A stretch of 38,888 bases of DNA. Source: Sulfobacillus sp. Its GTDB lineage: Bacteria; Bacillota; Sulfobacillia; Sulfobacillales; Sulfobacillaceae. The notes under the pieces are model-generated. The model did no database searches. It had not been told where the DNA came from and worked only from the letters and a program-made list of their open reading frames with translations. Location: contig DAIDDL010000040.1 in the NCBI GenBank assembly GCA_027309085.1, positions 1 through 38,888 on the forward strand. The letters run 5' to 3'. This document shows, piece by piece, positions 92 through 22,750 of the stretch (its first letter is position 1; each line of letters opens with the position of its first letter). The position numbers and the translations under genes are program-made.

Positions 92-1108
92 TTACCGCAC
101 AATGACCTTGGGAGGCATCGTCGACTGTCGGTAGATCAGATGGGCCTCTAAAATAATCTTGCGGAGGGGCTGTGCCATTCCCTCGATACGCTCGATGAGC
201 ATTTGTGTGCCCAAGGAGCCGTAGCTATAGGCGGGTTGGATAGCGGCGGTCAGCAGGGAATCCCCCGAGGCTAATTCGTCGGTATTGCCAAAGCCCACAA
301 TACTGAGGTCCTGGGGCATGTGCAGACCTAACTGCGCTAAACGCTGGCGGGCGTAGGCATATTGAAACACATTGGCCACGAACAGGGCCGTCGGGGGGTG
401 GGGGAGAGACAAAAAGGCATCGATAAACTTGCCGTTGGCGTTGCGCATCATGGACGATTCTTGAATGAAAGCAGGATCCACGTCCCACCCCTGGTCACGA
501 AGCGCTGTTTCGTAGCCAGCTAGTCGGTCACGGCTCGCTTGATTCTGCTGAGGGCCGGTCACGATCCCGATGTGCCGGTGACCTAATCCTATTAAATGCG
601 TCACTAAACTGATGGAGGCGTCCTTGACATTGCCTTTCACGACATCCGCCGAAACTCCTTGGACTTCACGGTCTACCATGACAAACGGCAGCTGGCGCTG
701 AATCAAAAGCACCAAACTCTCCGCCGACGAATCCCCTACGGGGCAGATTAACACGCCGTCCGCATGAAAATCGAGGCACATTTGAATCGATTCGCGTTCC
801 TTATACAGGTCTTCGTCCGTATTGGCTAAAATGACCCGATACTGGTGCTTGCGCGCGACATCTTCCATACCCCGGGCCACGAATGTGAAAAAGGGATTGG
901 TAATGTCCGGCACCACCAGAACCAAGGTGTTAATTTGTTGGTGAATGTGGTGTTTGGTGAATCCTTTGGGGACGTAATCCAGTTCCTCCATGGCCCGCAG
1001 AACCCGCTTGCGCGTGGCGTCCTTGACAGGGCCGGAGTCATTGATAATCCGCGAGACGGTCATGACCGAGACCCCAGCTTTTTTTGCTACATCGGCCATT
1101 GTTGGCAT
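92..1108 (-). CDS. LacI-family transcriptional regulator of the uronate operon
   Basis: DNA-binding repressor of the LacI/GalR family, 338 aa, the usual length. An N-terminal helix-turn-helix (about residues 4-50, with the typical MADVAKKAGVS opening and TVSRIIND recognition region) is followed by a periplasmic-binding-protein-like effector domain (about 60-335, 'VVPDITNPFF', 'VDREVQG', 'GHRHIGIVTG'). It is divergent from the uronate genes, with 169 bp between them, so it is the probable local regulator; a uronate or KDG-type effector is inferred, not seen. A perfect 13-bp palindrome overlaps the proposed -35 of the opposite operon. Start is the ATG at 1108; a second in-frame ATG three codons on (MADV) is the more family-typical start, but neither has an ideal ribosome site. 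Confidence 0.93.
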   Translation of the reverse strand: MPTMADVAKKAGVSVMTVSRIINDSGPVKDATRKRVLRAMEELDYVPKGFTKHHIHQQINTLVLVVPDITNPFFTFVARGMEDVARKHQYRVILANTDEDLYKERESIQMCLDFHADGVLICPVGDSSAESLVLLIQRQLPFVMVDREVQGVSADVVKGNVKDASISLVTHLIGLGHRHIGIVTGPQQNQASRDRLAGYETALRDQGWDVDPAFIQESSMMRNANGKFIDAFLSLPHPPTALFVANVFQYAYARQRLAQLGLHMPQDLSIVGFGNTDELASGDSLLTAAIQPAYSYGSLGTQMLIERIEGMAQPLRKIILEAHLIYRQSTMPPKVIVR

Positions 1109-1277: not shown

Positions 1278-1925
1278 ATGGACACTGCCATAAAGGGTTT
1301 AGCCGCGCACGGACTGATTGCTGTGATGCGTCATGTGCCGCTAACCGTGTTGCCTCATGTAGTTGAGGCGCTGGTGAACGGGGGAGTCCACTGTATTGAA
1401 CTCACCACGGATGGAGACAGCACCGTACCCAGAATTGCTGCCTTGCGGCAGCGTTTTGCCTCCGAGGTGGTCATCGGCGTGGGCACCGTACTCAGTGTGG
1501 ACGCCGTCCACGATGCCTGTGACGGCGGCGCGGAATTTTTGGTCTCCCCGCATTGGGATCCCCAGTTGATGGTGGCGGCCAAAAATCGAGGTGTTCCCTA
1601 CGTTCCCGGAGTCATGACGCCCACTGAAGTCTATACGGCCATCAGCCAGGGCGCTCCGATGATTAAATTATTCCCCGCGGCAATTTTGGGGCCGCGCTAT
1701 ATTCGAGAACTGCAAGGACCGTTCGGGGATCTGCCATTGATGGTGACCGGAGGGATCAACGAAGACAATTTACAGCAGTTTTTCGACGTCGGCGTGTTGG
1801 CCGTGGGCTTGGGAGGCGCGTTGGTGCCGGCGGCTGCGGTCGAACGTCGTGATTTTTTGTCCATCCAAGACAATGCCCGGAGGCTGACCGACCGCGTGGC
1901 CCAAGCCAGGACCAGGAGGATGTGA
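1278..1925 (+). CDS. eda: KDPG aldolase (2-dehydro-3-deoxy-phosphogluconate aldolase)
   Basis: Class I aldolase that splits 2-keto-3-deoxy-6-phosphogluconate into pyruvate and glyceraldehyde-3-phosphate, the last step of hexuronate breakdown. The 215-aa single TIM-barrel matches the family length. The Schiff-base lysine is K130 in 'MIKLFPA'; E41 in 'IELT', the 'GVGTV' strand (67-71) and 'SPH' (90-92) are also in place. The usual arginine after the catalytic Glu region is replaced by a 'TTDGDS' stretch, so the phosphate/4-OH specificity could differ and a KDPGal-type activity cannot be excluded. The ATG at 1278 follows a GGAGG at about 10 bases. It is the first gene of the operon; its stop is one base from the uxaA start. 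Confidence 0.93.
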   Translation: MDTAIKGLAAHGLIAVMRHVPLTVLPHVVEALVNGGVHCIELTTDGDSTVPRIAALRQRFASEVVIGVGTVLSVDAVHDACDGGAEFLVSPHWDPQLMVAAKNRGVPYVPGVMTPTEVYTAISQGAPMIKLFPAAILGPRYIRELQGPFGDLPLMVTGGINEDNLQQFFDVGVLAVGLGGALVPAAAVERRDFLSIQDNARRLTDRVAQARTRRM

Positions 1926-1926
1926 G

Positions 1927-3423
1927 ATGACCGAGGCATACGATCCGATTATGCAGTTGAATCCGATCGACACAGTCGCCGTGGCGCGAAAGACGCTGCA
2001 TCCCGGAGATATCATCCGAGGTGTGAGAGTGCAAGACGTGATTCCTGCGGGGCATAAAGTGGCATTGGCGTCGATCGCTCAGGGGCAGGCGGTCGTGAAA
2101 TATGGACATCCCATCGGTGTGGCGACCCGTCCCATTCAGCCTGGTCAGTGGGTTCACGGGCATAATGTGGCCACCAGGTTGACGGGCAAAGAGACCTACG
2201 AGTATGAACCGGCCTTGAAGGAGTCTGTGTGGCCGTCCCGCGCGGGGAACGGTCGCACCTTTTCTGGCTATGTGCGCGAGGATGGCACGGTCGGCATTCG
2301 CAACGAGATTTGGATCATTCCGACCGTCGGCTGCGTGAATAAGACAGCGGAACGATTGGCGTCGATGGCACAAGGGGCTTTTCAGGGCCGGGGCATTGAC
2401 GGGGTCTATTCTTTCCCTCACCCGTACGGGTGCTCGCAACTGGGCGAAGATCTCGCCTACACCCAAAAACTCTTGGCCGGACTGACCCGTCATCCGAATG
2501 CCGCGGCGGTATTGGTGCTGGGGCTGGGCTGTGAGACCAATCGCATTTCCGAATTTGTTCACGTGCTCGGACCTCTCGCCGATCACCGAGTGCAATTCCT
2601 CACGGTGCAAGAGGTGGAGGATGAATGGGAAACGGGGCTCAGGATCCTGGGCGAATTAGTGGCGTATGCTGAGCGCTTCCACCGGACACCGGTCCCGTTG
2701 TCGCGCCTGACCATCGGATTAAAATGCGGAGGGTCGGACGGGTTTTCCGGGATTACCGCCAATCCGTTAGTCGGCGTGGTGTCAGACCGGTTGGTCGACG
2801 CCGGGGCGACGACCTTGTTAACCGAAGTGCCGGAAATGTTTGGGGCGGAAACCCTCTTGATGGCGCGAGCGCGGGACCGCACGACGTTTGAAAACGTCGT
2901 GCGCTTAATTAATGACTTTAAGGACTATTATCTCCGTCACGGTCAAGTGATTTATGAAAACCCCTCGCCCGGAAACAAAGATGGAGGCATTACGACGCTC
3001 GAAGAAAAATCTTTGGGTTGCATTCAAAAAGGGGGCCAAAGCATCGTCGCCGACGTGGTGCCCTATGGGGAGCAGGCGAAGACACGGGGGTTGAATCTGG
3101 TCGCCGCGCCCGGCAACGATATGGTCTCTGTCACCGCTTTGGCCGCGGCAGGGGCTCAGATGGTCTTGTTCACCACGGGACGCGGCACGCCGCTAGGCGG
3201 ACCCGTACCGACCGTCAAAATTTCCACGAATTCCACACTGGCCACACGCAAACCGGGGTGGATTGACTTTGACGCTGGGCGATTACTGCAGGGGGCATCG
3301 ATGTCGGAACTCGCCGACGAACTGCTGGCGTTGGTCGTGGATATCGCCTCGGGTCGGCCCGTGGCCAATGAACGCCAGGGATTTCGTGAAATCGCCATCT
3401 TCAAAATAGGGGTCACATTGTAA
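1927..3423 (+). CDS. uxaA: Altronate dehydratase (UxaA family)
   Basis: Dehydrates D-altronate to 2-keto-3-deoxygluconate. At 498 aa it is the full-length two-part form: an N-terminal SAF domain (about residues 10-90) and the large UxaA/GarD catalytic region (about 110-490), with 'GYVREDGTVGIRNE', conserved cysteines in 'VGCVN', 'YGCSQLG' and 'GLGCETN', and the hallmark 'KCGGSDGFSG' at 266-275. Related galactarate and altronate dehydratases share these motifs, so substrate is fixed mainly by the neighbouring uxaB and eda. The ATG at 1927 is preceded by AGGAGG and follows the eda TGA directly, suggesting translational coupling. Confidence 0.93.
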   Translation: MTEAYDPIMQLNPIDTVAVARKTLHPGDIIRGVRVQDVIPAGHKVALASIAQGQAVVKYGHPIGVATRPIQPGQWVHGHNVATRLTGKETYEYEPALKESVWPSRAGNGRTFSGYVREDGTVGIRNEIWIIPTVGCVNKTAERLASMAQGAFQGRGIDGVYSFPHPYGCSQLGEDLAYTQKLLAGLTRHPNAAAVLVLGLGCETNRISEFVHVLGPLADHRVQFLTVQEVEDEWETGLRILGELVAYAERFHRTPVPLSRLTIGLKCGGSDGFSGITANPLVGVVSDRLVDAGATTLLTEVPEMFGAETLLMARARDRTTFENVVRLINDFKDYYLRHGQVIYENPSPGNKDGGITTLEEKSLGCIQKGGQSIVADVVPYGEQAKTRGLNLVAAPGNDMVSVTALAAAGAQMVLFTTGRGTPLGGPVPTVKISTNSTLATRKPGWIDFDAGRLLQGASMSELADELLALVVDIASGRPVANERQGFREIAIFKIGVTL

Positions 3424-3448: not shown

Positions 3449-4828
3449 GTGCCAGACAACGGGGAAAGGATGATACCCGGTCCGAGGATTGTCGGGGTGG
3501 AACGGGTTCTGCAAATCGGTGAAGGGAGATTTTTGCGAGGTTTTGTGGATTGGCTGTTGCAACAGTTGGATAACCAAGGCCTCTATGACGGTCGCGTGGT
3601 GGTGGCCGTCCCCCGGCCTAGTCGCCCTGGTGCATTGGATGCGTGGGAACAGCAAGGGTGTCGGTTTACGGTCGGGATTGAAGGCAGGACCGCGGGGCAG
3701 GTGGTGCGCCAGTACGAGACCGTGTCTGTCATCCGCCGCATTTTTGATCCCCATCAGCAGTGGCCGGAGTTTTTGGCCTTGGCCCGTCAGGCGGACATCG
3801 ATATCGTGGTGTCCAACACCACGGAAGCCGGGCTGGTCTACCAACCCGAACCGTTTGTCCCGGCCGTGTGTCCGCAGGCGTTTCCGGCGAAGCTGACCGC
3901 CTACCTTTATACCCGGTATCAGGCGTTTGAGGGCGCTGTGGACCGGGGGCTGGATATTGTGCCGTGCGAATTGGTGGAACAGAACGGAGACCTCTTAAAA
4001 ACCTTGGTGTTGCGCTACGCCGATTCGTGGCAGTTGCCGGAGGAATTTTCCATGTGGGTTGATGGCGCCAATCGGTTTTACAACACCCTGGTGGACAGTA
4101 TCGTGACGACTGGCGATTCATCCAGTGGCCGAGGCGATGACCGCCTCGCCGTGATTCGCGAGCCCTACTACCGCTGGGTCATTGCAGGCCCCGCGGCGCT
4201 CCGGTCGAAATGGCGGTTTGCTGCAGCGGGATTGCGGGTGGACTGGGTCTCGGACCTGACCCCGTTTCGCACCGTGAAAGTGCGGGTATTAAACGGGGCC
4301 CACACCGCGATGGCGGGATTAGGCTTATTGGCGGGACGGCATACGGTCAAGGAGGTGATGGATGACCCCACGTTAAGCCACTATGTACGCACACTGCTCA
4401 CCCAAGAAGTCCGGCCCACACTGATTGCCCGAGGAATTGACACGACAGAGATCGACACCTTTATTGCCGACGTGCTAGAGCGGTTTCAGAATCCGTTTTT
4501 GCACCATCAGCTGGCCGATATCCAGTTGAATGCCTGGTCCAAAATGCGGTATCGGTTATTGCCGACGCTGAAGGAATATGCGGAGAGATTTGGGGAGGTC
4601 CCCCCATTGTTGACGCTCGGGTGGTCCGCCCAAGTGTTGTGGAGTCTATCGTCGACCACGGGGGAGTCCCCGGAGATCGGACTACGGCGCCGGATAGAGG
4701 ATATTTTGGGGCAAGAATCGCTCTGGGGGGAAGATTTGACCACCGTGCCGGGGTGGGTGGCGACCGTGGTGGGAACGATCGAGCGCATCATCGCGGAAGG
4801 CGTGGACGCTGTGCTAGCCGAGTACTGA
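3449..4828 (+). CDS. uxaB: Tagaturonate reductase (mannitol dehydrogenase family)
   Basis: NADH-dependent reductase that turns D-tagaturonate into D-altronate, the substrate of the gene before it. The 459-aa protein begins with a Rossmann-type nucleotide fold ('VLQIGEGRFLRGFVDW', UxaB-like rather than MtlD-like). It carries the polyol-dehydrogenase catalytic set K277, N282 and H285 ('KVRVLNGAH'). The GTG at 3449 is chosen because GGAGGGGGG lies 6 bases before it; an ATG eight codons in (3470) is too close to its own purine run. The gap to uxaA is 25 bp. Fructuronate reductase (UxuB) is a relative and remains a less likely alternative. Confidence 0.9.
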   Translation: MPDNGERMIPGPRIVGVERVLQIGEGRFLRGFVDWLLQQLDNQGLYDGRVVVAVPRPSRPGALDAWEQQGCRFTVGIEGRTAGQVVRQYETVSVIRRIFDPHQQWPEFLALARQADIDIVVSNTTEAGLVYQPEPFVPAVCPQAFPAKLTAYLYTRYQAFEGAVDRGLDIVPCELVEQNGDLLKTLVLRYADSWQLPEEFSMWVDGANRFYNTLVDSIVTTGDSSSGRGDDRLAVIREPYYRWVIAGPAALRSKWRFAAAGLRVDWVSDLTPFRTVKVRVLNGAHTAMAGLGLLAGRHTVKEVMDDPTLSHYVRTLLTQEVRPTLIARGIDTTEIDTFIADVLERFQNPFLHHQLADIQLNAWSKMRYRLLPTLKEYAERFGEVPPLLTLGWSAQVLWSLSSTTGESPEIGLRRRIEDILGQESLWGEDLTTVPGWVATVVGTIERIIAEGVDAVLAEY

Positions 4829-4863: not shown

Positions 4864-5661
4864 ATGATGTTGCATATGCCACATCAGGCGTATCACGGAT
4901 ACCACGGTGTTGTGGGTCCGGACAATGGCCACTTGAGATTATTAACGTTTGCTCTGCTCAAACTGGGACCCGGGGAACAGTATGACGGTGATACTGGGGA
5001 TTACGAGCAAGTCTTCGTGCTGATGTCGGGAACCATGAGGATGGAAGTCAGCGGTCAGATCTTTGAAGGACAGCGCCGCAGTATGTTTGAGGACCGAGCG
5101 ACTGCCGTCTATCTGCCGAGAGCGACGCACTTTCACGTGACGAACGGCGGGCCGGGGACCTTAGAGGCCGGAATTGCGGGCACGCCGGCGGATGTGGTGT
5201 ATGCGCCCTTTATAGTGAAACCGGACGAAATTGGGAGACGGCGCGTCGGGCAGTCCAATTGGGCCCGGACAGTGCAAGACATCGTCGTGAAAAACGGCGA
5301 CGGGCGTGTGCACCGGATTGTCGTCGGGGAAACCATCAATGACCCGGGCAATTGGTCCGGCTATCCTCCCCACAAGCATGATACCGCCATTCCGGACCTC
5401 GAGGCCGACATGGAAGAGTTGTATCATTACCGCGTGTCTCCAGCCCAGGGATTTGGGGCGCAGCTGCGGTATACGAAAGATCCGGGGCACAGCGAAGCCT
5501 ATGTGGTGCGCGATGGCGATTCCTTTTTGATTCCAGATGGGTATCACCCGGTGGCCGCCGGAGCCGGGTACCGGCTCTACTACTTGTGGATGATGGCGGG
5601 CAACATAGACCGTCAGCTCCTGCCCCATGAGGATCCTGACCATGTCTGGGTCAACGAATAA
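4864..5661 (+). CDS. IolB/KduI-fold sugar-acid isomerase
   Basis: A 265-aa double-cupin protein of the 5-deoxy-glucuronate isomerase (IolB) family. Supporting motifs are 'NWSGYPPHKHD' (metal-binding His pair), 'MEELYHYRVSPAQGFGAQ', 'DGYHPVAAGAGYRLYYL' and 'DPDHVW' near the end. IolB normally acts in inositol catabolism, but no other iol gene is present. In a uronate operon that lacks uxaC, it may perform the uronate-to-ketouronate isomerisation or process a related uronic acid; this is inference. Published work on the related KduI of E. coli shows uronate isomerisation is possible in this fold. The ATG at 4864 (or 4867) follows GGAGAAAGAGGGG; an open frame extends upstream inside uxaB but is not coding. 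Confidence 0.85.
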   Translation: MMLHMPHQAYHGYHGVVGPDNGHLRLLTFALLKLGPGEQYDGDTGDYEQVFVLMSGTMRMEVSGQIFEGQRRSMFEDRATAVYLPRATHFHVTNGGPGTLEAGIAGTPADVVYAPFIVKPDEIGRRRVGQSNWARTVQDIVVKNGDGRVHRIVVGETINDPGNWSGYPPHKHDTAIPDLEADMEELYHYRVSPAQGFGAQLRYTKDPGHSEAYVVRDGDSFLIPDGYHPVAAGAGYRLYYLWMMAGNIDRQLLPHEDPDHVWVNE

Positions 5662-6715
5662 CGGGGTATCCGGACGTCTCGCGAAACTCGTCCACCTGGT
5701 GCGCGACCAACAATGGCCGGCCTTAGCACTAAGCCGCGAGGAGAATTTGGCATGGGTGTTCGGGGGACGCTTTCATGTCAATTGCGCTACTGTGACAGGA
5801 ATCGCGAGTTTGGTGGTGACCAGCGATGGAGCCTACATGGTGGTGGATAACATCGAACAGGAGCGTCTGGTCAACGAAGAGGGTGTGGTGGGCGTGAATT
5901 GCCGAACATATCCCTGGCATGATCCGCACGGACGGGAATCGTCGTGGCCTCCGTTGGCGGTGACGGATGAGCAAGCCGAGTCACGTCTGCTATGGTTGCG
6001 CTGTCGCCTGGACGCTGATCAAGAGGCCGATGCCGAATGCGGGGGGCGTCTCTTGGCGCAAGCGCTCGAGGGGGCGTGCCGCGAGTGCCAACCTCAAGAA
6101 TCCGAATATGTGGTGGCCGCACGCTTGGCGGCACGGTGTTTAGAACGTGGAATTGAACCCGTGGTGAACTTAGTCGGCGGCGAAGATCGCGCCTTGAAGT
6201 ATCGGCACTTGATGCCCACAGACGCCAGAATGGGTCGCTATGGAATCGTGTCGATTGGAGGACGGTACCGGGGCATTGTGATCTCAGCGACGCGTATGGT
6301 GCATTTCGGGACGGTACCGGCAGGGCTGCGGGGTCGCTATGAAGCGGTGACTCGAGTTTACGGGGCCTTTCTCGATGCGTCTACGGTGGGCAATACCCTA
6401 GGGCAGACGTTGGCTGCCGGGCAGCAACACTATGGTCGGGAAGGGTACGCCGACGAATGGCGGTTTCACCATCAGGGCGGGGTGGCAGGATATCGCTCCC
6501 GAGAGATGAAGGCCAAGCCGCAGTCCACTTTTGCAATTGCAGAGCATCAGCTGTTAGCGTGGAATCCCACGATTCGCGGAGTGAAAGTGGAAGATACGGT
6601 CCTCGTTCACAAATCGTCCCGGCTGCAGTGGTTAACGCGCACCCCGGACACCCCAACGATCGAGGTGAGCACCGCGAATGGTGTCTGGGCCATCGCGGAT
6701 TGGATGATCCTCTAA
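5642..6715 (+). CDS. M24 / creatinase-like protein lacking metal ligands
   Basis: A 357-aa protein with the two-part architecture of Xaa-Pro peptidases and creatinase: a creatinase-type N-domain (about 1-140) and a pita-bread M24 domain (about 150-350). The metal-binding aspartates of peptidases are absent: 'VSIGGRYRG' and 'SATRMVHFG' occupy the places of the DxG and DxTRT motifs. The usual HGxG region reads 'HHQGGVAGY', while 'KVEDTVLV' keeps the C-terminal Glu. It is therefore probably not a metallopeptidase; a creatinase-like hydrolase or a binding protein is possible. It overlaps the previous gene by 20 bp, and TGAGGA sits 8 bases before the ATG at 5642. A diverged piece of this gene lies at 22011-22190. 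Confidence 0.8.
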   Translation: MSGSTNNGVSGRLAKLVHLVRDQQWPALALSREENLAWVFGGRFHVNCATVTGIASLVVTSDGAYMVVDNIEQERLVNEEGVVGVNCRTYPWHDPHGRESSWPPLAVTDEQAESRLLWLRCRLDADQEADAECGGRLLAQALEGACRECQPQESEYVVAARLAARCLERGIEPVVNLVGGEDRALKYRHLMPTDARMGRYGIVSIGGRYRGIVISATRMVHFGTVPAGLRGRYEAVTRVYGAFLDASTVGNTLGQTLAAGQQHYGREGYADEWRFHHQGGVAGYRSREMKAKPQSTFAIAEHQLLAWNPTIRGVKVEDTVLVHKSSRLQWLTRTPDTPTIEVSTANGVWAIADWMIL

Positions 6716-6734
6716 TCAGAAAGCGAGGATGGCC

Positions 6735-7688
6735 ATGAGTTCTAAGGATAGCGTGTTGACAACGGGCGAAATCCTGGGGGTGATGACCCCTGCGCACCGT
6801 GGTCGCCTCATGTTGCATACAACCCTGACATTAAGTATTGGCGGATCGGAATTTAATGTGGCCATGGCGCTTGCCCGTTTACAGCAGTCGGTGATGTTTA
6901 CGGGACGGGTGGGCGCCGATCCCGCGGGGCAGTTAGCCATCGATCTTTTGCGCGGGGCAGGCGTTGATATCTCCGGGATAGGGGTGGATCCCCAAGCGCA
7001 AACGGGGTGGTACATCAAAGAATTTTACGGGCTGTCGGATGAACCGCGCGTTTACTATTATCGTCGACACAGTGCGGCCCGGGATTGGATGCCGCCAGGT
7101 CTGGACGAGTTACCGACCGGGAAGGCGGTGGGGTGGGTGCATACGAGCGGCATTACGTTGATGTTGGATGCGGCGTTGAGTCAGCGCGTCCAAGATTTTG
7201 TCATGCAATGGGCGGCCCGTGACATTCCCGTATCCTTGGACATCAATTACCGCCAGGCGTTAGGGCGGCCCGACGAATGGCGGCAGGCCATCCGGGCGGT
7301 GCTGCCATTCGTGACGGTTCTGTTGGGCTCCCGTACGGAACTGGAAGTGGTGTTGGGGACGTCTCCGGGGGAAAAGATGCCGGTGGGCACGTTACCGCGG
7401 ACCGTTGTTGTCAAAGATCACCGTCAGGCTCAAGTGTATCACGGAGGCGATCTTGTGGCCGACATCCCCGCTCTCCCAGTGCCGGGAGTGGTGGATGTGG
7501 TCGGAGCTGGGGATGGATTTTCGGCAGGACTCATTGCCGGGTGGCGTGAAACTCAGAACTGGAGCGAGGCGCTGCGATGGGGTCATGTGGTGGGAGCCTT
7601 GGCAGTCCGTCATCCGGGCGATTGGGAAGGCTATCCCTGTTATGATGAACTGCAAGCGGTGTTGCACAACCAGTGGAGAGACCGGTAG
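6735..7688 (+). CDS. kdgK: 2-keto-3-deoxygluconate kinase (PfkB family)
   Basis: Phosphorylates KDG to KDPG with ATP, linking uxaA to eda. The 317-aa protein has the ribokinase/PfkB fold: 'GGSEFNVAMALARL' near the N-terminus and the C-terminal signature 'VVGAGDGFSAGL' with catalytic D260. Substrate is inferred from the operon, which has every other step around KDG. Start: two ATGs six bases apart; the second (6735) is preferred because GAGG (6725-6728) is then at a normal distance. It is the last gene of the operon, with 19 bp from the M24 gene. Confidence 0.88.
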   Translation: MSSKDSVLTTGEILGVMTPAHRGRLMLHTTLTLSIGGSEFNVAMALARLQQSVMFTGRVGADPAGQLAIDLLRGAGVDISGIGVDPQAQTGWYIKEFYGLSDEPRVYYYRRHSAARDWMPPGLDELPTGKAVGWVHTSGITLMLDAALSQRVQDFVMQWAARDIPVSLDINYRQALGRPDEWRQAIRAVLPFVTVLLGSRTELEVVLGTSPGEKMPVGTLPRTVVVKDHRQAQVYHGGDLVADIPALPVPGVVDVVGAGDGFSAGLIAGWRETQNWSEALRWGHVVGALAVRHPGDWEGYPCYDELQAVLHNQWRDR

Positions 7689-21739: not shown

Positions 21740-22750
21740 AGTGTCGAGAGTTTTGTGTAAACCCGATTTAGGCTTGCTTTTCTAGCGGGCCCGTGACGCG
21801 ACGCGGTCATCGGCCGGACCCCCATGGTCAAAGATCATGGAGGCTGTGGCGGGCCATCGTCGTGCGGGCGGTGCTTCGACCGGCATGTTCCAAACGTGGT
21901 CAAATCGCTTCCGCGTCGCCGTCCGGCGACGGTTCCGTCGCAACAGGGGGAGACCCGTCCCAAGAGATGCTTATTTTCTCCCGGTTTTTCAGAAGATGCC
22001 AACGGTCGGTAAGTTTACGGGGCCTTTCTCGATGCGTTTATGGTGGTCAATACCTTAGGGCAGACCTTGGCTGCCGAGCAGCAATATTATGGTCGGGAGG
22101 GCTACGCTGACGAATGGCGGTTTCACATCAAGGGGGGTGGCGGGATATCGCTCCCGAGAGATACAGGCCGGGCCACAACCTCATTTCTTTCGATAAGGCC
22201 TGTGGAAAACCGCCTGGCAGGCGGATACTTATTCCGACAGGCTTCGGCATGAATGAGGCTCGGTCATCTGTCGAAACCGATGGGCCGAATGGTTTGTGGT
22301 ATGATAAACAGAAAAATTATATCTTTGAATCCGGCTCGGCTGGGAGAATAAAGTTAGGCTGGGAACCGTCCAGCGCGCAATGACAAACCGCGAGTGAGCT
22401 TTGACTGCCGAGGCAGCGGTGACGGCATCAGTACAGGAAACAGGCAGGGAACCGCCGTCGGTTGTAGCATTAACGTTGCTGTTGTCGGGAACAATGTGCA
22501 CACAGCCTGTCGAAAGTTACTGAGCAATTGCGCTGGATGATGTGCCGGACTGGGCACATGTCTTAGGCTCCGTCATAACATTATTTAACGAAATTCCAGC
22601 GCTTCCATAGCTTTGCGCATTCGCGGTGATTCTTTAAATCTATACAGTTAACGCAGAAGTGCAACCCACAAAATTTGAGGAGCGGCTGCTATTGGATTCA
22701 CGATATGGTTCGATTGAGCAATTTGCCCTTGATTTAAGGGGAGTGGCCCG
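21740..22750. other. Largely non-coding stretch with gene debris
   Basis: Apart from the M24 gene fragment (22011-22190) there is no credible gene. A plus-strand frame at about 22398-22520 ('TAEAAVTASVQETGREPPS' onward) has protein-like composition and ends in a stop, so it may be the tail of another lost gene I do not recognise. A possible 20-codon leader frame starting with TTG at about 22692 ends on the start codon of the next gene (ATGA). Confidence 0.4.
22011..22190 (+). pseudogene. Diverged fragment of the M24/creatinase-like gene
   Basis: About 180 bp align, with roughly 10-20% differences by eye, to bases 6354-6533 of the intact gene (for example 'NTLGQTLAA-QQ-YGREGYADEWRFH' is retained). 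A one-base shift near 22130 breaks the frame ('HIKGGGGISLPR' versus 'HHQGGVAGYRSR'). Both ends fade into unrelated sequence. Confidence 0.85.

Follow-up and report, generated by a model that had tools for sequence, protein, structure and literature searches.

A bicupin of the IolB/KduI superfamily as a candidate substitute for the uronate isomerase UxaC in a Sulfobacillus operon

Results

Gene content of the operon

The window, the whole 38,888-nucleotide stretch of Sulfobacillus sp. DNA analyzed here, contains a uronate operon whose gene order, according to profile matches, is eda-uxaA-uxaB-cupin-M24-kdgK, with lacI on the opposite strand. The LacI-family regulator (92..1108, minus strand; PF00356/PF13377) is divergent from the operon, and its orthologues, which are 49-68% identical, adjoin uxaA/uxaB operons both of the type that encodes the cupin and of the type that encodes UxaC. 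All of the remaining genes are on the plus strand: eda, encoding KDPG aldolase (1278..1925; TIGR01182, 177 bits with a cut-off of 156); uxaA, encoding an altronate dehydratase with SAF and GD_AH domains (1927..3423; PF08666, PF04295, PF20629); and uxaB, encoding tagaturonate reductase (3449..4828; NF002969, 461 bits with a cut-off of 359). The UxaA orthologues found in the same slot of UxaC- and cupin-type operons are 59-66% identical. Following uxaB are genes for a bicupin of 265 amino acids with the IolB/KduI fold (4864..5661; PF04962, 240.9 bits), a metal-less M24 (pita-bread) protein with an HHQGG motif (5642..6715; PF00557, 41 bits, over the gathering score), and a PfkB-family kinase that is probably KdgK, 2-keto-3-deoxygluconate kinase (6729..7688; PF00294). 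The best NCBIfam match of this kinase is to the KDG/KDGal kinase model NF040938, at 132 bits, which is below that model's cut-off. UxaA, UxaB, Eda and the PfkB kinase make up a complete route from tagaturonate to pyruvate and GAP.

The earlier note described the cupin and M24 genes as translationally overlapping between uxaB and kdgK. They do overlap, but probably by a shorter stretch than the full open frame would give: the M24 reading frame is open from 5627, and the ATG at 5642 is preceded, eight bases upstream, by an AGGA at a suitable distance, making it the likelier start and the overlap 20 nt instead of 35.

Downstream of the operon are a TatC gene, a GntR-type regulator, a sugar ABC transporter, and an araB-araM-araD-araA cluster; these surroundings suit an organism that uses pectin sugars. 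The uxaB-cupin neighborhood recurs in the Sulfobacillia, the Alicyclobacillales and the Bacillaceae, and given this recurrence across three groups the layout is far beyond chance. Elsewhere in the genome, a second gene of the UxaB/mannitol-dehydrogenase type (33% identical; contig C132, 17225-18478, locus L093) has genes for a sugar ABC transporter and an alcohol dehydrogenase in its vicinity.

Absence of UxaC and features of the cupin

That the entry isomerase gene uxaC is missing from this uronate operon had been noticed earlier, with the reservation that a copy might be encoded elsewhere in the genome. Neither the operon nor the rest of the genome, which is 99% complete, contains a match to UxaC (PF02614), and the control search was positive in seven named genomes; PF02614 was likewise without a match in 60 relatives. 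BH0493 is known as a 'family 2' uronate isomerase. A 4i6v-like amidohydrolase, from a branch related to UxaC, was also searched for in the window's genome, with the 390 residues of PDB 4i6v as the query, and gave no match. These two whole-genome searches rule out a hidden UxaC in this genome.

The only family that the cupin matches is PF04962, which places it outside PF02614, the amidohydrolase family of UxaC. Its metal site, formed by H170, H172, E184 (or E185), and H228, is kept and is invariant in the alignment. The predicted structure (pLDDT 93) most closely resembles the IolB-like protein 2qjv (Z 35.5), followed by KduI (1xru, Z 25.7).

Exchange of the cupin and UxaC across genomes

The comparison as a whole took in about 100 genomes, among them 59 of the Alicyclobacillales, the order of Alicyclobacillus pomorum, in which scores against the cupin A1 model are bimodal (286-400 vs 174-219 bits). 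Within this order we found a strong UxaB in 37 genomes, a cupin of the clade in 27, and UxaC in 11. The cupin genomes are all UxaB-positive (27 of 27; Fisher p = 8e-9), and the 37 UxaB genomes divide into 25 with the cupin only, eight with UxaC only, two with both, and two with neither (Fisher p = 5e-5), although just two label changes suffice in the trees, so that both p values imply more independent events than there were. Of the two cases with neither isomerase, one is a 5.2 kb contig end, and in the other UxaB is matched in two pieces with no UxaA nearby. The cupin adjoins uxaA or uxaB in 26 of the 27 genomes that encode it, and in many other relatives the cupin adjoins UxaB as well.

Six genomes (G075, G078, G081, G082, G088, and G103; loci L249-L254) contain the same operon with UxaC and without the cupin, together with UxaA, UxaB, a similar sugar porter, and an orthologous LacI that is ~60-62% identical to that of the window; in a seventh UxaC-type operon (G112; L255), the LacI is more distant (49%). 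UxaC or the cupin, therefore, fills the same slot in operons that share these partners. In the UxaA and LacI trees the UxaC-type operons nest within the cupin-type operons, indicating that at least one exchange of the isomerase happened in place. The cupin resembles UxaC in its slot, its partners, and its predicted reaction but has an unrelated fold. Because the two exchange slots, we propose, on the basis of gene context, that the cupin has uronate isomerase activity (EC 5.3.1.12); it is very probably a non-orthologous isomerase that replaces UxaC and converts D-galacturonate to D-tagaturonate. The earlier note had proposed that this IolB homolog may replace UxaC, and both the swap within orthologous operons and the near-exclusive co-occurrence strongly support this.

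A scan of named genomes placed six uxa-linked loci at the top: uxaA-uxaB-cupin-M24-lacI and kdgK-eda-uxaA-uxaB-cupin-M24-lacI in two Bacillota MAGs (L096 and L097, respectively), uxaA-cupin-uxaB in A. pomorum and A. contaminans, cupin-M24-lacI-uxaA-uxaB in Bacillus taeanensis, and lacI-cupin-uxaA-uxaB in Bacillus sp. OV166. The cupin/M24 pair thus passes the conservation check set out in the earlier note, being found in other uxa operons. The other check named there, for a uxaC elsewhere in the genome, is likewise passed by the window's genome. Two Bacillus genomes do encode UxaC at another place: OV166 contains, besides its cupin cluster, a full uxaC-uxaB-uxaA-eda-kdgK-kduI-kduD cluster, and B. 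taeanensis encodes UxaC in another setting.

The presence of both isomerases in these two species suggests that the cupin may favor another uronate there. More generally, the cupin could be a uronate isomerase that acts mainly on a different aldose uronate (taluronate, glucuronate, or mannuronate), yielding tagaturonate or fructuronate. In keeping with this, uxuA is found within some cupin operons (L098, L244, L245, and L266), such that glucuronate may be a substrate too, and distant cupins of the family adjoin UxuB with eda, enolase-family, and PfkB genes (L113 and L115) or KduD-like SDRs (L107, L108, and L118), suggesting that the family at large may act on several uronates. However, the window and most of the operons encode tagaturonate reductase and altronate dehydratase without uxuA, and UxaC occupies the same position in operons with an orthologous regulator; for the window we consider a different main substrate improbable. 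The two Alicyclobacillales genomes that encode both isomerases (G117 and G119) divide the partners between them, UxaC being found with UxuA, an SDR, Eda, and a GH2 glycosidase and the cupin with UxaA, UxaB, and M24, which points to galacturonate as the substrate of the cupin.

Distinction from IolB and KduI

IolB carries out, on 5-deoxyglucuronate, the kind of aldose-ketose shift adjoining a carboxylate-bearing sugar that is predicted for the cupin. In one rival reading, the cupin is an ordinary IolB, a 5-deoxyglucuronate isomerase of inositol catabolism that is located by chance in a uronate operon. The two share a superfamily (the same Pfam family), a fold, metal ligands, and equivalent chemistry on a uronate-like sugar, and 2qjv is the closest solved structure. 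Moreover, the score of the cupin against the IolB equivalog model TIGR04378, 200.5, is just below the cut-off of 205, and two orthologues in Alicyclobacillales uxa operons pass it with 228 and 231 bits (L236:8192-8989 and L233:8375-9178, respectively). The model, therefore, does not separate the two clades, and public annotation will name such uxa-operon cupins 5-deoxyglucuronate isomerase.

In a tree of 116 sequences, the window cupin falls within a clade of 22 rows (support 99/99) that consists mostly of proteins adjoining uxaA/uxaB, while the IolBs of inositol operons form a separate clade (100/99) and KduI is far off on its own long branch. Residues W242, T157, N159, G155, V128, and M183 differ from IolB across the whole clade; at the positions of the pocket-type residues W242 and T157, IolB has N and V, respectively. 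The cupins of relatives form three groups, 64-67%, 38-47%, and 31-36% identical, and only the last is found in iol clusters. Relatives with a true inositol pathway have a second, distinct IolB within the iol cluster. The window operon is linked to uxaA/uxaB and contains no iol genes, and the best IolD match in the genome scores 210 bits against a cut-off of 715, indicating that there is no inositol pathway; IolD exceeds this cut-off in all eight relatives with a canonical IolB, and only in those. The lack of the pathway and the separate clade rule against an ordinary IolB, which we regard as very improbable, and they further strengthen the proposal that the cupin replaces UxaC.

We also considered whether the window cupin is a KduI that acts as the partner of KduD. 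KduI (1xru, 1x8m) has the bicupin fold, the HxH/E/H metal site, and a tryptophan at the position of W242, but it is only ~16% identical over the fold alignment; this candidate was rejected, as there is no kduD in the operon and KduI is distant in the tree.

On the megaplasmid of Lachnospira (Eubacterium) eligens ATCC 27750, a 44% identical 'iolB' (L095:11968-12783) has no iol genes nearby; its neighbors are a YhcH-family gene and an SLC13 permease. The uxaB-cupin pairs of the 38-47% group are repeatedly accompanied by a Gfo/Idh/MocA oxidoreductase into which a CxxC...C segment is inserted (L050:4355-5689; L054:1771-3081; L056:11732-13093; L059:7266-8600; L100:14648-15952; L090:5644-6954). In G014 and G022 (L050:9247-14476 and L052:229-7356), uxaB-cupin is followed by a TtuC/isocitrate-dehydrogenase-like gene and by an altronate/galactarate dehydratase that is split and carries a fused FAH-like domain; these loci may serve another branch of sugar-acid catabolism.

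The M24 protein

The M24 protein was described in the earlier note as metal-less, and our alignment agrees: in the window protein the five positions of the metal set D-D-H-E-E are occupied by S-S-G-A-E, a loss of four of the five ligands that is common to its relatives, while the HHQGG motif is kept (24-row alignment). H276, H277, Q278, R183, H189, E155, R287, K315, and E317 are invariant in the same alignment and suggest a putative active site. The predicted structure (pLDDT 88) has the prolidase/DoeA/creatinase fold, with prolidases matched by Foldseek at E 2e-19. The protein shares the pita-bread fold and a Creatinase_N-type first domain with prolidase/aminopeptidase P, creatinase (1chm), and DoeA (6twk); unlike these canonical enzymes it has lost the metal ligands, is linked to sugar catabolism, and contains HHQGG and AWNP..KxED motifs that canonical members lack.

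M24 accompanies the cupin in 15 of the 27 Alicyclobacillales cupin genomes and in none of the seven UxaC-type operons (p = 0.011, subject to the kinship of the genomes). A strict partnership was rejected, since the other 12 cupin genomes are without M24 and relatives of M24 also occur without the cupin; M24 is a frequent but dispensable partner of the cupin. Two observations concern the integrity of the gene. A 168-bp piece of the window (22012-22177), 15 kb downstream and 88% identical to 6355-6522 in the M24 gene, has a frame break and is a recent partial copy of that gene. In G011 the M24 gene (L024:9642-10733) is in three frames with two frameshifts, due to either sequence error or decay, and the other genes of that operon are intact.

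Relatives of M24 are found in Thermus xylose operons (xylA-xylB-M24-Gfo/Idh(-SDR); L184:8022-8987 and L185:7959-8960), in a GMC oxidoreductase-M24-SDR cluster in Pantoea, in an aldehyde dehydrogenase-M24 pair in Deinococcus, and in haloarchaeal arabinofuranosidase and cyanobacterial malQ/glucosidase loci. The Thermus, haloarchaeal, and cyanobacterial proteins are 29-36% identical to that of the window and belong to the same metal-less HHQGG family, but the partners differ, being xylA/xylB/Gfo-Idh or arabinofuranosidases in Thermus and the haloarchaea and uxaAB with the cupin in the window. Metal-less HHQGG proteins that recur in sugar loci (L182-L185, L192-L200) are annotated as metallopeptidases.

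The common theme of these contexts is reducing sugars, or their oxidation, and not nitrogen compounds, and for this reason we prefer ring opening or lactone clearing over C-N hydrolysis. M24 could be a metal-free sugar mutarotase or sugar-lactone hydrolase that serves many aldose pathways, with the invariant residues as its active site. This is possible, though on balance unlikely: the link is one of gene neighborhood, the G011 copy is frameshifted, and to our knowledge no M24-fold mutarotase or lactonase has been described.

The earlier note had instead suggested that M24, as a creatinase-like C-N hydrolase, and the cupin jointly free and isomerize a modified (amide or N-linked) uronate, in line with the pair overlapping in the window and adjoining in many operons and with a fold that includes two C-N hydrolases, creatinase and the ectoine hydrolase DoeA; this we consider highly unlikely, because about half of the cupin operons are without M24, its relatives are found in neutral-sugar loci (xylose, arabinan, alpha-glucan) in which an amidated uronate is implausible, and creatinase is one among many equally distant folds (1chm, a marginal sequence match at E = 1e-4 compared with 3e-23 for prolidase, and Foldseek rank 28).

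Discussion

In the pathway that we propose, the cupin would convert D-galacturonate, an aldose, to D-tagaturonate, a ketose, probably by way of a metal-bound open-chain form of the sugar. UxaB would then convert tagaturonate to D-altronate and UxaA would convert altronate to KDG, which KdgK would phosphorylate, leaving Eda to cleave the product to pyruvate and GAP. M24 is probably a metal-free enzyme that acts on reducing sugars or lactones; our best guess, a tentative one, is that it would take the ring or lactone form of the sugar and thereby feed the isomerase.

A cupin- or IolB-type uronate isomerase was not found in the open-access literature; the nearest precedent is KduI of E. coli, a related cupin that speeds the conversion of galacturonate and glucuronate in extracts (PMC3578941). 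What we rate as new is the pairing of a known reaction, uronate isomerization, with a known superfamily, the IolB/KduI cupins. We suggest, tentatively, that two new families could be represented here: a second, cupin-type family of uronate isomerases across the Firmicutes and beyond, and, in the HHQGG M24 proteins, a metal-free family of sugar catabolism in bacteria and haloarchaea (xylose, arabinose, glucan, and uronate) with a new pita-bread chemistry, for example mutarotation or lactone hydrolysis.

The cupin is a candidate for the first enzyme of galacturonate catabolism in bacteria with uxaAB but without uxaC. Recognizing it corrects an annotation trap, as current models label uxa-linked cupins as inositol IolB, and draws attention to a metal-free M24 family that recurs in bacterial and archaeal sugar operons. 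Since the hosts are acidophiles, thermophiles, or their relatives, a stable galacturonate isomerase from these organisms could serve the conversion of pectin waste.
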